Assembly (NCBI GenBank): GCA_015071005.1
Contig: SVIG01000003.1
Span: 1-64,000 of the forward strand
Origin: Clostridiales bacterium
Lineage (GTDB): Bacteria > Bacillota > Clostridia > Christensenellales > Borkfalkiaceae
Direction: 5' to 3'
DNA: 64,000 nt
Shown here: one piece after another, positions 57,043 through 63,962 of the stretch
How the letters are laid out: every line of letters starts with the position of its first letter
Position numbering within the stretch: the stretch's first letter is position 1
Notes under the pieces: model-generated
What the model was told of the DNA's origin: nothing
The model's input: only the letters and a program-made list of their open reading frames with translations
The model's database searches: none
Translations under genes and position numbers: made by a program

Positions 57043-58137
<1,095 letters not shown>

Positions 58138-58244
58138 TCATTATACTATGTTTTTTGAAAAATTCAATAGAAATTATTTCATGGTTATTTGGGATTCTTT
58201 CGCAGCTAAAGGCTTTGAAATATTCAAACATTACCTTAAATTGT

Positions 58245-58273
58245 TTTACAAACTCAAATTTATTTGTTATAAT
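58245..58273 (+). promoter_or_regulatory. Leaderless promoter of the AraC-type regulator
   Basis: TTTACA at 58245-58250, 17 bases, TATAAT at 58268-58273, six bases, then ATG at 58280. Transcription would begin at the start codon, and no ribosome site is present. Confidence 0.78.
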
Positions 58274-58279
58274 GTAATT

Positions 58280-59161
58280 ATGAATAAGTCAACCAAGAAA
58301 TTTTATATGCATAAAATATCCAATCTTTTGAACGTGCAAAAGATCGTCACGATCCATTATCAAACGCTTGGAAAAAACTACGTTTTCCCCGAAGAGGAGC
58401 ACGATTTTTGGGAAATCAACTATGCGGACAAGGGCAACGTTTTTGTTGGACTTGACGGGGAAAAAGTCGAGCTGAAACAAGGCGAAATGCTTTTTATTAA
58501 GCCTAATCAACCGCATTTTATGGAAAGCGGAAACAAAGAGCCGCACGTATTCATTATTTCCTTTGCTTGCCGTTCGGAATCTATGAATTTTTTCTCGGAA
58601 AAGAAATATGCCGTGCCTGAAAATTACCGATATTTACTGCAAAATATAATGTCGGAAGCGGAAGATACGTTTGATTTACCCGAGTTTGATCCAAACTTAA
58701 ACGCCTTAAAATTACGCGAAAATCCCAATCTTGGCGGCGAACAAATCATTAAAAATTCCCTTGAAACCCTACTTATTTATTTACTGCGCGCTGCGCAAAA
58801 CCGCGCGCACACGCAAGAATTCTTCGTTTCTAAAATCGCGGACTCTTCCGAGCTTGAAGATGAAATCGTGCGTATACTTAATTCGAAAATATACGGCAAA
58901 TTCACACTTGCGGATTTAAGCAATGAGCTCCACTACGGTACGACAAGACTTTGCACCTTTTTCAAAGAAAAAACAGGAAAGAGTATTTATCAAACTTATT
59001 TGAAATTAAAAATTGACGAGGCAAAGCGCCTTATTCGTAAGCATAAGAATTTCTCGGAGATTGCGGATATGCTTTGTTTTGACTCTATTTCCACCTTTGC
59101 CTTCGTATTCAAAAAATACGTGGGTATGACGCCGAGTGAATATCGAAACAGTATTAAATAA
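58280..59161 (+). CDS. AraC-family transcriptional regulator with cupin domain
   Basis: This 293-residue regulator has an N-terminal AraC-type cupin (about 20-110, HDFWEINYADKGNVFVGLDG...LFIKPNQPHFMES), probably the effector domain. The C-terminal double helix-turn-helix (about 195-293) includes FTLADLSNELHYGTTRLCTFFK and FSEIADMLCFDSISTFAFVFKK, closing on YVGMTPSEYRNS. The frame is open back to 58040, but the promoter at 58245-58273 fixes the start at 58280. It is transcribed away from the NahK-like kinase and may sense a sugar, which is inferred from context only. Confidence 0.92.
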   Translation: MNKSTKKFYMHKISNLLNVQKIVTIHYQTLGKNYVFPEEEHDFWEINYADKGNVFVGLDGEKVELKQGEMLFIKPNQPHFMESGNKEPHVFIISFACRSESMNFFSEKKYAVPENYRYLLQNIMSEAEDTFDLPEFDPNLNALKLRENPNLGGEQIIKNSLETLLIYLLRAAQNRAHTQEFFVSKIADSSELEDEIVRILNSKIYGKFTLADLSNELHYGTTRLCTFFKEKTGKSIYQTYLKLKIDEAKRLIRKHKNFSEIADMLCFDSISTFAFVFKKYVGMTPSEYRNSIK

Positions 59162-59193: not shown

Positions 59194-60864
59194 TTATTTT
59201 ACTTGTATAATCGTGCCTTTTTCAATATTCAAAATGTTATCGGCAATTTCTAATGCCGCAGGTCTATGGGTAACGATAAGACACGTTCTATCGTTGAGCG
59301 CTCTCAAATTTTCAAGCAAAGCGCTTTCCGTTTCGGTATCCAACGCACTCGTTGCTTCGTCCAAGAGTAAAATCGGACGATTGGATAATATCGCTCTTGC
59401 CACCGCCAAGCGTTGTCTTTGTCCTTCGGACAAACCGCTGCCAGCTTCTAATAACACCGTATTTAATCCGTCAGGCAAATCATATACGAAATCCGCGCAA
59501 GCGACGCGCAGGGCTGATTTTATTTTTTCTTCGTCAAGCGTTTCCTTGTTAAAGAAAACTAAATTCTCACGAATCGTACCCGAGAACAAGAAATTTCCTT
59601 GCGGAACGTAAGCAAAAAGCCCTCTATACGCTTCCGTGAGTTCTCTTTCGCCGTCTTGATAAACAAGCGAAATTTTGCCTAAATTTTGACGGAAAACACG
59701 TAATAAAAGTTTGAATAAGGTACTTTTACCCGCTCCCGACGCGCCTGTCAGGCAAACAATCTTTCCCTTTTCAATCGTAGCGGAGGCATTCTCTAAAACG
59801 GTTTCTCTGCCGTAGGTAAAACCGACGTTTTCAAAGCGAATTGCGGACAAGTTATCGTACTGTGCGTCCACTTGTTCGGCATTTACGTTTTCTTTATCAA
59901 GCTCGCTAATTTCTAACAATCGTTCGCTGCTTGCAAGTCGTGCATAATAGGCAGGTGCGAGCGAAGAAAAACCCGAAAGCGGCTGCTGAAATTGCATTAA
60001 AAGAAGAATGACGGAAAGTATCGCGCCGTAATCGTCCATTTTGCCGTTCAAAACGCTTACTCCGCACCAAACAACGGCAAAAATCAAACCGAAATTGCTT
60101 AAAAAATTGAAAAATCCGTTCATGCACGAGCGCAAAACGTTTCGTTTCATTCGTTTATCATAATAAACGTTCGTTAAAGCTTGCGCTTTGTCGGTATATT
60201 TTCCTTCGGCGCTATACGCCTTGACTGTCATAATCGAGCCTAAACCTTCTTGCATAAACGAACGGACCTGCCCGTCGCTTTCCATGACTTCTTTATGCTT
60301 TTGCTTAAGCTGTTTTCTAAAAAGCGCAAACAAACCGCAGAAGATACCGCCGCAAACAATATAAATAAGCGTAAACCAAGGATCGATCGTAAGCAATGCG
60401 ACGATTGCGCCGACTGTTTGTGCGACCATACCTGCGATTGCAGGCATCAGCCCTGCTGTCGTTGCGCTGACTTCGGAAATATCGGACGTGAGTCGATTCA
60501 TTAGCTCCCCGCTATGATATTCGTTGATTTTTGCATAATCCGAACGTAAAATCGCGGAAAAGGTTTTTACGCGCAACGTCGAGAAAATCATCGTGCGAAG
60601 TTTTTCACTCAAATACCCCGTCCAAGTCTTTAATGCGATTCTAAAGAGTAAAAGCCCGAGCAAACAGCCCGCAAAAATCCAAAGCCGTGTGGCTTGTTGA
60701 TTGGTCGCGCTGTTGATAAGATAACGCACCATATACGCAAACGCCAAAGAAAAAACGGTAGAAAGCACCGTTAAAACGGTCAAAAAGACGATAAATGCAC
60801 TATACGGGCGTATTTCGTTTTTTAACCATATTTTCCCTGAATTCATTTGCGTGGATTTCTTCAT
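59194..60864 (-). CDS. ABC exporter (fused permease and ATPase)
   Basis: This 556-residue half-transporter has a six-helix type IV exporter domain (about 20-310) and a nucleotide-binding domain with Walker A LTGASGAGKST near 372-382, signature GLSEGQRQR near 475, Walker B PILLLDEATSALD, and H-loop VTHRP. There is no N-terminal C39 peptidase domain. It belongs to the lipid/peptide exporter class. It is the last gene of a tight minus-strand cassette behind purB (lipoprotein-like peptide, HprK-like, PqqD, S26-type peptidase), so export of a modified peptide is a reasonable inference. Confidence 0.93.
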   Translation of the reverse strand: MKKSTQMNSGKIWLKNEIRPYSAFIVFLTVLTVLSTVFSLAFAYMVRYLINSATNQQATRLWIFAGCLLGLLLFRIALKTWTGYLSEKLRTMIFSTLRVKTFSAILRSDYAKINEYHSGELMNRLTSDISEVSATTAGLMPAIAGMVAQTVGAIVALLTIDPWFTLIYIVCGGIFCGLFALFRKQLKQKHKEVMESDGQVRSFMQEGLGSIMTVKAYSAEGKYTDKAQALTNVYYDKRMKRNVLRSCMNGFFNFLSNFGLIFAVVWCGVSVLNGKMDDYGAILSVILLLMQFQQPLSGFSSLAPAYYARLASSERLLEISELDKENVNAEQVDAQYDNLSAIRFENVGFTYGRETVLENASATIEKGKIVCLTGASGAGKSTLFKLLLRVFRQNLGKISLVYQDGERELTEAYRGLFAYVPQGNFLFSGTIRENLVFFNKETLDEEKIKSALRVACADFVYDLPDGLNTVLLEAGSGLSEGQRQRLAVARAILSNRPILLLDEATSALDTETESALLENLRALNDRTCLIVTHRPAALEIADNILNIEKGTIIQVK

Positions 60865-60879
60865 AATTTTACCCTATCG

Positions 60880-61347
60880 TTATTTTTGTTTGCGCGGAAA
60901 GAAGAATCGAAAGATCTTTGCGCAAAAACGTCGAATCTTATATTTTATAAGAACAAAAAAACGGCGCGTTTTATAAGTTTTTAAGCGCTTATTGGCATAA
61001 GCGACGTATTTTTCGTCCGTACAAAAAATATGCTTTCCTTTGCGAAAAAACTCCGTCAAAACGCCGATTACTGCCTCTTCGGGGACGTTCTCGTCGGAAT
61101 AACAGTTGTCGCCGCGAATGATATAACCCGTATCCGTTGGTGCTAAAACGCGATGCAAAATGTATGCGTCGCCTCGTTTATAAAGCGCGACGTCCAAACG
61201 TTTTAATTTTTCCGTTTTGGGGCGTACGACAATGGTATCTCGCCTATTTTTGAGCATAGGCAACATACTTACGCCGACCGTCGGGCCGATATACACGCCT
61301 TTTTCTAAAAGCGCGTCTTCAATTTTGAGCTTTTCAACTTCACTCAT
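60880..61347 (-). CDS. S24/S26-family peptidase (signal-peptidase-like)
   Basis: This 155-residue protein has the serine-protease box GVSMLPML with Ser27, and LDVALYKRGDAYILHRVL, where His65 sits where signal peptidases of the SipW/ER type use His in place of Lys. YIIRGDNC is the usual third box. No N-terminal membrane span is present; the C-terminus is very basic and aromatic (RRFFVLIKYKIRRF), perhaps peripheral to the membrane. Its ATG overlaps the pqqD stop (ATGA). Such proteins accompany PqqD and HprK-like genes in RiPP-type cassettes and may process the peptide. Confidence 0.8.
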   Translation of the reverse strand: MSEVEKLKIEDALLEKGVYIGPTVGVSMLPMLKNRRDTIVVRPKTEKLKRLDVALYKRGDAYILHRVLAPTDTGYIIRGDNCYSDENVPEEAVIGVLTEFFRKGKHIFCTDEKYVAYANKRLKTYKTRRFFVLIKYKIRRFCAKIFRFFFPRKQK

Positions 61348-61607
61348 TCGGCAAACCCGTTTCTCGTCAATATTTCAACGAATCTTTCTACGTCAGCGCA
61401 TGCTTTTTCTTCTTCGACGTCGTATTCCGCACAAAGCGCATTTACGCCGTCTTCAACGGAATGTTCTTCCGTGTAAAAGCGCCATAAAAACGCGCCCGTC
61501 GAATTCAAATTGATCATTCCGTGGAATTCTTTGCTCATTTTTCCTACGGGCACTACTACCGTTTCCCCGCCGACTTCTCTTAAAACAAAACCTTTTTTAA
61601 TTTGCAT
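61344..61607 (-). CDS. PqqD-family peptide-recognition protein
   Basis: This 87-residue winged-helix protein is of the PqqD/RRE family, which binds leader peptides of RiPP precursors and presents them to modifying enzymes. The hallmark is present: MINLNSTGAFLWRFY at about 31-45, then SVEDGVNALCAEYDVEEEKA and DVERFVEILTRNGF. GGAGA precedes the ATG. It sits between the HprK-like gene (overlapping spacing) and the peptidase gene (four-base overlap), so the three are translated together. Confidence 0.9.
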   Translation of the reverse strand: MQIKKGFVLREVGGETVVVPVGKMSKEFHGMINLNSTGAFLWRFYTEEHSVEDGVNALCAEYDVEEEKACADVERFVEILTRNGFAE

Positions 61608-61609
61608 AA

Positions 61610-62326
61610 TTATTTCTCCGCATAATTTTTCCCTGTCAAGGCTTCAAAGGATTTTTGCACCGCTTCTTCCGAGATATCGCACTTCAATAAGTAAGCGGGC
61701 GTTTTTTGAATCAGCTTATCGGCAAGCTCTAACGTTGCCAACGCGCCTTCTTCCGTTTCAGGGATTAAAAGCTGCGTAAATAAGCGGCTCGTTACTTCCT
61801 TATTTGTTAATTGATCTATGGAATTTTCTTTTGCTTGCTCCAAAAAGCAAAGGCCGCAAAGGGGTGCGCTTGTTTTTTCGCCCCAACCTTCTTTGCCCTG
61901 CCAAGGCGTACCAAAGGCAATAAATTGGTCTTCGGTACAAGCCAAAATCGGTTTATCCCCGTTGACAATTTTCGTGTTTGGAACGTTTTTCAGCCAAAGC
62001 TTGGTATGGGTAGACTTCCCCGTACCGCTACGCCCCAAAAAAGCATACGCCTTACCTTCGTATTCTAAAATGGACGAATGCATTAAAATACGTCCAAATA
62101 AAGGCATTTGCATACAAATACTACGATAAAGACAAATATTTTCAATATATCCGTCCGAAAAATTGGGGGAAAGTTTTTTTTCTTCCTCAAATTCTTCTTT
62201 CGTCACTTCTGCCGTAATATCTACGGGCGAAGCCTGATCGTCGGAAAGATACTTAAAACAAAATTTATCCGTGTATGCGTATTGATTTTTGATTAGAACA
62301 CGAAGTCCTGCAAGCTCATATACCAT
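61610..62326 (-). CDS. HPr-kinase/PEPCK-like P-loop protein
   Basis: This 238-residue protein has the HprK/PEPCK-type P-loop FLGRSGTGKST at residues 97-106, LMHSS just before it, VNGDKPIL at 121-128, and AFGTPWQGKEGW at 138-148, which is typical of the HprK-like proteins found with PqqD. It lacks the N-terminal domain and the C-terminal HPr-binding helices of real HPr kinase. Relatives in lasso-peptide clusters phosphorylate a residue of the precursor; whether this one does is untested. The ribosome site is weak; the gene follows the small lipoprotein-like ORF by 15 bases. Confidence 0.82.
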   Translation of the reverse strand: MVYELAGLRVLIKNQYAYTDKFCFKYLSDDQASPVDITAEVTKEEFEEEKKLSPNFSDGYIENICLYRSICMQMPLFGRILMHSSILEYEGKAYAFLGRSGTGKSTHTKLWLKNVPNTKIVNGDKPILACTEDQFIAFGTPWQGKEGWGEKTSAPLCGLCFLEQAKENSIDQLTNKEVTSRLFTQLLIPETEEGALATLELADKLIQKTPAYLLKCDISEEAVQKSFEALTGKNYAEK

Positions 62327-62341
62327 AAAATTTTCTAAATT

Positions 62342-62515
62342 TTAATAATTATCAGTCCAGCCTTCACTATCAGTCTCGCCTGGAACGTTAGGGCGAGTGG
62401 GCTTTGCCGGTTCTTTGATGGTTTCCGTCACGCAATCCGAACACCCTGCAAATGCAAACGCGACGACAAAGGTTAACGCCATGCAAAGGGATAAAAGCGC
62501 TCTTTTCAATTTCAT
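62342..62515 (-). CDS. Small lipoprotein-like peptide, candidate cassette substrate
   Basis: This is a 57-residue product: a basic N-region, a hydrophobic segment (LLSLCMALTFVVAFAFAG) and Cys25 in the lipobox-like FAGC. It continues with 33 residues holding a second Cys (Cys28), a Pro-rich spacer (KEPAKPTRPNVPGE) and an acidic, aromatic end (GWTDNY). The ATG at 62515 follows AAGGAG that overlaps the purB stop, so it is cotranscribed with purB and leads the HprK/PqqD/S26/ABC cassette. It may be a small lipoprotein, or the precursor acted on by the cassette. I know of no family match. Confidence 0.65.
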   Translation of the reverse strand: MKLKRALLSLCMALTFVVAFAFAGCSDCVTETIKEPAKPTRPNVPGETDSEGWTDNY

Positions 62516-62525
62516 ATCTAGCTCC

Positions 62526-63962
62526 TTACACGCGCACGTCGCCCTTTTCCCCAAGGAGCGTAGCGTGTTTTTCTAAAATGGGATCGATTTCGTTGGCGAT
62601 AAATTCAACCGTTTGCGAAGGCGCTCTGCCGATGAACTTACTCGCGTCCAAAATTTCGTCGATTTTATCCCATACGGGGCGGAACATTTCGTCCGCTTTG
62701 ATTAAATCAATCAGATTATTTTCTTTCCCTTCCACTTTCACGTTTTTACCTGCTTCCATGGAAAGCTGACGGATTCTTTCGTGGAGTTCTTGTCTATCTC
62801 CACCTGCTTTTACGCAACCCATCATAATATTTTCCGTCGCCATAAACGGCAATTCCGCGCGAATATGCTTTGCAATAACCTTTTCATACACAACAAGGTT
62901 TTCCGCAACGTTCATATAAATATTCAAAATCGCGTCCACCGACAAAAACGCTTGCGCGTTTACGATGCGGCGATTTGCGGAATCATCCAACGTTCTTTCA
63001 AACCATTGCGTAGACGCGGTCAACGCGCTATTCATCGGCAAGGAAATTACGTATCTTGCCAATGCGCCGATACGTTCGGATCGCATAGGATTGCGTTTGT
63101 ACGCCATTGCGGACGAACCGATTTGGTTCTTTTCGAAGGGTTCTTCTATTTCCTTCATGTTTTGCAAAATACGGATATCGTTCGAGAACTTATATGCACT
63201 TTGCGCGATTTGCGAGAGTACGCAAAGAATATTGTAGTCAAGTTTACGAGGATACGTTTGACCGGTCACGCCGTATACTTTATCATAGCCAAGCTTGGAA
63301 ACAACTTTCTTTTCAAGCGCCTTAATCTTTTCTTCGTCGCCGTTGAAAAGCTCCATAAAGCTTGCTTGCGTACCCGTTGTACCCTTTACGCCGCGAAGCT
63401 TAATATTTTCCTTCGCGTTCATAAGGTTTACGTAGTCCATTTCCAAATCCTGCAACCAAAGAGTCGCGCGTTTGCCGACTGTCGTAAGCTGTGCAGGCTG
63501 CAAATGGGTAAAGCCGAGCGTGGGGACGTCTTTATATTTAAGAGCAAACTTTTTCAGCTTGTCCATAACGTTGACAAGTTTTTTCAAGATAATATCCAAG
63601 GCTTCGTCAAGCATAATTGCTTCGGCGTTGCAGTTTACAAAGCAGCTCGTTGCGCCAAGATGGATAATGGGTTTCCCCTTTTGCGCGTACTCGCCGTAAG
63701 CCTTTACGTGCGCCATAACGTCGTGACGGACTTCTCTTTCAAACTTCGCCGCCAATTCGTAATCAATCTCGTCGGCGTACTTTTTCAAATCGTCCACTTG
63801 TTCTTGCGTGACGTTCAAGCCAAGCTCCATTTCCGATTCCGCAAGCGCGATCCAAAGCTTTCTCCAAAGCTTAAAGCGCTTTTCATCGGAAAATGCGTGC
63901 TGCATATCCTTGCTTGCATAACGGGTAATAAGCGGATTCGTATAAATGCTGTTATCTACCAT
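62526..63962 (-). CDS. purB: Adenylosuccinate lyase
   Basis: It acts twice in purine synthesis (SAICAR to AICAR, adenylosuccinate to AMP). The 478-residue protein carries HLGATSCFVNCNAEA, HLQPAQLTTVGKRA with the catalytic His, KGTTGTQASF, and the fumarase-superfamily signature GSSAMAYKRNPMRSER. Length is normal for this subgroup. The ATG at 63962 follows GGTGAG; a TTG at 63974 is at the predicted transcript start. The gene leads the minus-strand transcript that continues into the small lipoprotein cassette. Confidence 0.96.
   Translation of the reverse strand: MVDNSIYTNPLITRYASKDMQHAFSDEKRFKLWRKLWIALAESEMELGLNVTQEQVDDLKKYADEIDYELAAKFEREVRHDVMAHVKAYGEYAQKGKPIIHLGATSCFVNCNAEAIMLDEALDIILKKLVNVMDKLKKFALKYKDVPTLGFTHLQPAQLTTVGKRATLWLQDLEMDYVNLMNAKENIKLRGVKGTTGTQASFMELFNGDEEKIKALEKKVVSKLGYDKVYGVTGQTYPRKLDYNILCVLSQIAQSAYKFSNDIRILQNMKEIEEPFEKNQIGSSAMAYKRNPMRSERIGALARYVISLPMNSALTASTQWFERTLDDSANRRIVNAQAFLSVDAILNIYMNVAENLVVYEKVIAKHIRAELPFMATENIMMGCVKAGGDRQELHERIRQLSMEAGKNVKVEGKENNLIDLIKADEMFRPVWDKIDEILDASKFIGRAPSQTVEFIANEIDPILEKHATLLGEKGDVRV

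Follow-up and report, generated by a model that had tools for sequence, protein, structure and literature searches.

Gene clusters for linear polyphosphorylated peptides (LPPs), which belong to the ribosomally synthesized and post-translationally modified peptides (RiPPs), were published in May 2026 with the gene set lppA-K-B-S-D-N (PMC13381572). According to the main text of that paper, to which our statements about LPPs are limited, the kinase LppK adds several phosphates to Ser3 of the core peptide, LppS cleaves off the leader with the aid of LppB, and an MsbA-like pump and a nucleoside triphosphate (NTP) transferase round out the set. The leader has the consensus YxxPxVLxHQxIxFETxxS, and an exchange of the phosphosite Ser for Thr abolished phosphorylation by LppK. 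The same text describes paeninodin leaders as having Trp, and states that non-paeninodin lasso precursors may also have Tyr-first leaders; in rumen bacteria, an HPr kinase, PqqD and a nucleotidyltransferase have been reported alongside lasso clusters (PMC7533575). Here we describe a related locus in a 64 kb stretch of a Clostridiales genome (GCA_015071005.1, contig SVIG01000003.1, family Borkfalkiaceae), referred to as the window in the following. It comprises a small lipoprotein-like open reading frame (ORF) and genes for an HprK-like kinase (K), a discrete PqqD-type RiPP recognition element (RRE; B), a signal-peptidase-like leader peptidase (S) and an ATP-binding cassette (ABC) exporter (D). 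Judging from sequence and gene context, we consider it likely that K, B, S and D form an LPP-like core for maturation and export, acting in trans on precursors encoded elsewhere in the genome, the products of which would act on the cell surface.

The K-B-S-D cassette is real. All five genes, which an original prediction from the DNA letters had described as a compact peptide-maturation cassette, are open at the positions given there and run head to tail on the minus strand with spacings of 15, 2, −4 and 15 nt, and the order K-B-S-D is kept in 11 of 11 loci examined in relatives from the same genus. It matches the LPP core (PMC13381572, main text): HprK-like kinase, discrete RRE, SipW-type peptidase with Ser, His and Asp, and MsbA-like exporter are all four present. 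B is the sole match to PF05402 in the genome at E≤0.001, and its profile matches the lasso B1 structures and 9x90/9x8z. For K, sequence searches against solved structures returned chiefly P-loop proteins and one PEPCK, for S nothing but matches that we judged unrelated; since these searches were uninformative, the folds of both are predictions. PqqD was found in 33 of the 57 genomes of the genus. PF14907, the family of the LppN-type NTP transferases, occurs in 32 of the 57, namely in 26 of the 33 with PqqD and in 6 of the 24 without it (Fisher p 1e-4). Its gene adjoins D in four relatives (G060, G095, G102 and G147; we use working identifiers for genomes, contigs, loci and genera, with the initials G, C, L and g), and in the genome studied here it lies on another contig (C6:293076-293789).

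The substrates of such a core are probably encoded elsewhere. A profile (A1) made from four peptides, two from the genus and two from directly upstream of K-B-S in genus g14, retrieved many small ORFs in the genus, and 70 of the listed matches were translated. They are 35–56 residues long, nearly all with a good ribosome site, and carry an N-terminal leader of about the pattern KxYxxPx[L/I]x[I/V]...D[VI][VI][TR]xS; the C-terminal part is variable, mostly acidic and rich in aromatic residues. The end motif is fitted by 69 of them (all except L274), and in 58 of these 69 the Tyr stands exactly 19 residues before the Ser. The first aromatic residue is Tyr in nearly all. Of the LPP consensus, they have the Tyr and the conserved Ser, a Pro follows three residues past the Tyr position in 40 of the 69, and HQ and FET are absent. 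Some of these precursors are near-duplicates between genomes (L292, L312, L332), and none of those tested is named by a Pfam or NCBIfam model, a single NCBIfam match being at chance level. The genome studied here has at least seven precursors, on contigs C1, C2 (two), C6, C7 (two) and C10, the last being 120 kb away from the cassette. Linked leader peptides exist as well: they lie directly upstream of K-B-S in two g14 genomes (G031, G014; L066, L077) and directly upstream of PqqD in a genome of g11 (G011; L058). Besides, a weak leader match on G238:C40 lies about 450 nt from a second PqqD and may be another linked precursor.

Leaders and PqqD also occur together. In searches of the same 251 genomes of the family with profiles for the leader alone (A5) and for PqqD (A2), leader matches at E≤0.01 were obtained in 57 of the 98 PqqD-bearing genomes and in 10 of the 153 that lack PqqD. 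Outside the genus of the window, the corresponding counts are 33 of 70 and 3 of 142, and at the same threshold there is no leader match in any of the eight genera without PqqD.

The surroundings of the precursors point to the cell surface. Among 63 precursor rows (three are probably chance hits of a loose pattern), 50 are followed by an ORF of 150 residues or more that begins within about 140 nt. A hydrophobic N-terminus was seen in 44 of these 50 ORFs and in 16 of 51 ORFs of the window, by a crude test that counts membrane proteins too and with a control made up of all window ORFs, not of small-gene neighbours. Likewise, each of the seven precursors of the genome studied here has a large gene at a distance of at most about 100 nt. 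Nine large partners were scanned, with weak matches to Flg_new (the Listeria-Bacteroides repeat) in three, Big-type domains in one, an M26-type region in one, and nothing in the other four. This arrangement suggests that each peptide acts jointly with a secreted protein made alongside it, and because the precursors stand mostly beside a gene for a large secreted protein, the peptide most likely acts with that protein on the cell surface. As to the partners themselves, a loose GAS[VIL]R-like motif is found near the N-terminus of 17 large partner ORFs, with no Pfam name in those scanned, and L352, L370, L376 and L382 have partners that are homologous to each other.

By analogy with the published LPP enzymes (PMC13381572, main text), the four-gene kit would thus probably phosphorylate, trim and export small peptides, which comes close to the suggestion made from the DNA letters that a short acidic peptide might be phosphorylated, proteolysed and exported. 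B would bind the leader, i.e. the Tyr, the often present xxP and a following β-strand, of tiny precursors encoded elsewhere. K would (poly)phosphorylate the conserved Ser of D[VI][VI]TxS, usually 19 residues past the leader Tyr, S would cut off the leader near the phosphorylated Ser, and D would export the acidic, aromatic-rich core. Once outside, the peptide would most likely act on the cell surface together with the neighbouring large secreted protein. The features of the locus are collected in Table 1.

Table 1. Coordinates of the cassette and its neighbour in the 64 kb window.
Feature	Position	Strand	Remarks
D: MsbA-like ABC exporter	59194..60864	-	PF00664 + PF00005; best NCBIfam model is MsbA, E 2e-85, below that model's cut-off
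S: SipW/archaeal-type signal-peptidase-like leader peptidase (S24/S26-like)	60880..61347	-	Ser27, His65 and Asp80 invariant in 18 sequences
B: discrete PqqD-type RRE	61344..61607	-	PF05402, E 2.2e-17
K: HprK/PEPCK-fold P-loop kinase, LppK-like	61610..62326	-	
Small lipoprotein-like ORF, 57 residues	62342..62515	-	Signal peptide, lipobox ending FAGC, variable linker, C-terminal tail SEGWTDNY
Codons of the WTDNY tail and stop (conserved element)	62342..62359	-	Pattern search for the tail
purB (adenylosuccinate lyase)	62526..63962	-	Syntenic neighbour, outside the system

Several observations weigh against this reading. A pattern search of the whole 64 kb window gave no leader-type ORF, so that a linked precursor is missing, and there is no NTP transferase in the cluster either. 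K is split into two ORFs in two relatives (L036, and L202; L044). Ten genomes without PqqD have leaders: three belong to genera with PqqD in other members, and the other seven, from the genus of the window, are 71–92% complete (G136 being 92% complete, with 6% contamination). Conversely, 41 of the 98 genomes with PqqD lack a leader match at E≤0.01. Of these, 26 fall into g5 and g6, where most of the loci read have K and B and no match to S or D. Sixteen g6 genomes do have leader matches at this threshold, so the leaders track PqqD better than they track S and D, the latter two of which may be dispensable in some genomes. Because the genomes of the family are related, p-values overstate their independence. 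The C-terminal tails described below add to this list: their link with the cassette consists of adjacency and tail sharing only, the lipoproteins that bear them have no leader, and their distribution in the genus (16 of 33 PqqD-bearing genomes against 9 of 24 lacking it, counted by hand and leaving out G002, with a match in a 22-residue ORF, and G147, where the match ends in TGG) gives no clear association, so that we rejected the tail as an indicator of PqqD within the genus. Moreover, profile A1 contained the two tail-bearing peptides and thereby favoured the finding of tails, and the end motif of the leader was partly selected by the profile. Like these points, the crudeness of the N-terminus test counts against us.

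The first alternative is that the 57-residue lipoprotein, a possible substrate in the original prediction, is the dedicated one: K would phosphorylate it, perhaps on the Thr of WTDNY, S or a signal peptidase would trim it, and D would export a 33-residue product. Its gene lies directly upstream of K at a distance of 15 nt, a small anchored protein with a similar tail precedes K in 11 of the 30 readable cassettes of the genus (33 PqqD-bearing genomes minus three cut by a contig end), once as two in tandem, and W[ST] supplies a residue with a hydroxyl group. These 11 proteins have a lipobox in most cases and a membrane anchor in two, as judged by eye, and their linkers differ; what is conserved is the C-terminus alone, where WTDNY (twice), WTGNY, WSKNY and WTKNY in tandem, WTKNY and WTNNY (twice) are found next to the variants YTDNY, WTNNH, WSDFY and EEWN. 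When the full lipoprotein was used as the query, 39 of the 57 genomes of the genus matched at E≤1, mostly through signal-peptide regions of other proteins, so that the tail alone was informative. The Trp/Tyr ending that had been singled out from the DNA letters thus proved to be the conserved part in the sister loci. The small ORF itself, the conservation of which was to decide on its role as the substrate, did not hold up at full length: it is absent in 19 of the 30 cassettes. In addition, the lipoprotein has no YxxP leader for an RRE to bind, its lipoprotein or membrane-anchor N-terminus (the lipobox was called by eye) would route it through Sec, and the same tail stands on proteins of 300–680 residues, which are unlikely cargo for D. 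The variability of the tail and the loss of LppK phosphorylation upon exchange of Ser for Thr (PMC13381572, main text) also speak against it, and better substrates are encoded elsewhere in the genome. We accordingly rejected the lipoprotein as the main substrate, a role that we regard as unlikely; it is probably an accessory, tail-displaying surface protein rather than a leader-bearing substrate.

We give similarly little credence to the idea that the leader peptides belong to another, unrecognised modification system and that the cassette serves something else. It would explain why the precursors of the genus are unlinked to the cassette, why ten genomes without PqqD have leader peptides, and why 16 genomes of g6 have them though the g6 loci read lack S and D beside PqqD. 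However, the genome has a single PqqD, leaders and PqqD co-occur strongly by genome and by genus, with no match at the chosen threshold in genera that lack PqqD, and in g14 and g11 the leader peptides are encoded directly upstream of K-B-S or PqqD.

Coming back to the LPP-like core acting in trans, the tail of the small lipoprotein leads to a more tentative proposal. In the 57 genomes of the genus, the pattern W[ST]xNY-stop gave 45 matches (4 of which end in TGG, not in a stop) against 6 for the reversed control. Among the translated matches, the tail mostly closes lipoproteins or surface proteins with a membrane anchor, about 50 to 680 residues in length, and many of these proteins have repeats that resemble Flg_new by eye. 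Across the family, convincing tails were found in g1, g2 and g5 only, all of which have PqqD, with part of the matches translated; g6, g8, g14 and g16 have PqqD and, among the pattern matches that were translated, no clear tail. The translated matches from other genera are nearly all tiny or chance ORFs, the exceptions being a 193-residue lipoprotein in L246 and ABC ATPases in L258 and L259. At L211:3710-5632, a 640-residue, apparently membrane-spanning protein ends in EIWTDNY. A transporter gene lies directly upstream of tail-bearing repeat lipoproteins in several genomes of the genus (L204, L207, L213, L215, L218, L220, L243), and in L299 the place of these lipoproteins is taken by a precursor and three small lipoproteins with the tails WTAFY, WIGPF and WTDFH; we take the transporter to be ZIP-like and to carry metal ions.

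Some precursors share their tail with a lipoprotein. In L222, a leader-type peptide ends in NWTSNY and the adjoining lipoprotein in HWTSNY, in L299 (G140) the precursor ends in NWTAFY and the next lipoprotein in DWTAFY, and in G120 the precursor and an unlinked lipoprotein both end in WTGIY. As the shared tails use different codons, they are not exact copies at the DNA level. Most other precursor cores have no tail in common with any lipoprotein found. In a permutation test on 11 loci, 24 of 20000 shuffles reached the summed tail identity and 190 reached two exact matches, values that are indicative only, because the pairs compared were hand-chosen. A second class of tails, [IVF][ED]LPEDxF, gave 25 matches against 3 for the control. 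Ten of them end in TGG instead of a stop, and of the remaining 15, those from G102, G122, G088 and G036 are unrelated or tiny ORFs, while 11 end lipoproteins encoded beside precursors, one or two at a time, in six genomes (G000, G108, G114, G126, G158 and G161). The precursors beside these lipoproteins do not themselves end in the motif.

Peptides and lipoproteins would take different ways out, the former through the ABC exporter and the latter through Sec, so that an extracellular role of the shared tail is most likely, e.g. as a docking peptide. It is conceivable, though we hold the idea with some reserve, that W[ST]xNY-type tails form a tag code with two routes: they would reach the outside both on peptides matured by K, B, S and D and on Sec-exported lipoproteins or large repeat proteins, and there assemble, by docking or attachment, the large secreted proteins whose genes stand next to the precursors. 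The second tail class beside precursors fits this proposal. If true, the phosphopeptide kit would serve the assembly of the cell surface and would not be a pathway to an antibiotic. LPPs were first described in 2026 and their role is unknown, and the present system would give them a testable setting in cell-surface assembly. For genome mining, the lesson is that the enzyme core may stand apart from its likely precursors, which come in several copies per genome, so that a search inside gene clusters alone misses the substrates; what is gained is a leader motif with a predicted phosphosite and a tail family common to exported peptides and lipoproteins.

The ribosome site of the lipoprotein gene (TAAGGAG) overlaps the stop codon of purB, as had been noted originally, but there is nothing odd in this link: purB is the next large upstream gene in 23 of the 33 PqqD-bearing genomes of the genus (hand count), 14 of which have no small gene of the lipoprotein kind between purB and K, and its position beside the cassette is ordinary synteny. 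On the other side, a gene for an AraC-family regulator (58058-59158, plus strand) is convergent with the exporter gene, the two facing each other with their 3′ ends; an AraC-type gene occupies the same place in L033, while L032 has a 3′ portion of such a gene farther downstream. In genus g2 (L040, L045), a conserved ORF of 51 residues, which we assume to be YjzC-like, precedes the K-B-S genes. In most of the loci L047-L065, mainly from g5 and g6, K and B stand without S and D; in many cases the next gene is a conserved ORF of about 495 residues, presumably DUF1846-like, and a divergent lipoprotein of about 360 residues is encoded upstream, a different use of the K and B pair. The taxon of the window is one of the Clostridia that are known through metagenome-assembled genomes: all 20 fetched relatives of S come from metagenome-assembled Clostridia or Clostridiales, 15 of them annotated with deer, goat, sheep or reindeer as the source.

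Among the known systems, the SynChlorMet (ScmC/ScmD) and HPr-rel-A families of NCBIfam are met by distant matches of K and B, but with 26.8 of 125, 29 of 100 and 12.1 of 200 bits these lie far below the curated cut-offs. Paeninodin-type lasso clusters share with our system a PqqD-type B1, an HprK-like kinase, an ABC exporter and an NTP transferase, and one could regard the cassette as a decayed or partial cluster of this type that has lost its cyclase. B does match lasso PqqD models of NCBIfam weakly, and Tyr-first leaders are known from non-paeninodin lasso precursors. We nevertheless consider such decay very improbable: the seven locus proteins scanned with Pfam include no macrolactam cyclase and no B2 peptidase, the rest of the genome not having been searched for them, S is of the signal-peptidase type, the constancy of the gene order is unlike decay, and the first aromatic residue of the leader is nearly always Tyr, not the Trp of paeninodin (PMC13381572, main text). 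Radical SAM enzymes, YcaO proteins and transglutaminases are likewise missing among these seven proteins, in line with what the letters had suggested. We rejected an assignment to lasso, SynChlorMet or HPr-rel-A systems on the basis of scores and of genes absent at the locus.

This leaves the LPP clusters as the closest relatives. Our literature search for precursors that are orphans or served in trans, which did not extend to most subscription papers and preprints and is no proof of absence, gave, among the papers listed, nothing nearer than PMC13381572, the main text of which has none of the words clostrid, orphan, distant, unlinked, surface and secreted. Like the clusters described there, our system has a kinase, a discrete RRE, a SipW-like peptidase with Ser, His and Asp and an exporter of the MsbA type in this order, a Tyr-first leader with a conserved Ser close to its end, and an NTP transferase in the genome, which in four relatives is part of the operon. 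It differs in that the precursors, at least seven and scattered, and the NTP transferase are both unlinked, that the leader ends in D[VI][VI]TxS instead of HQxIxFETxxS, with a distance from Tyr to Ser of mostly 19 instead of 18, that the precursors stand mostly beside genes for secreted proteins, and that tail-bearing lipoproteins are present. Since the window has neither a linked precursor nor a linked NTP transferase, we do not count the system as a full LPP member, but as an LPP-like maturation core that probably acts in trans.

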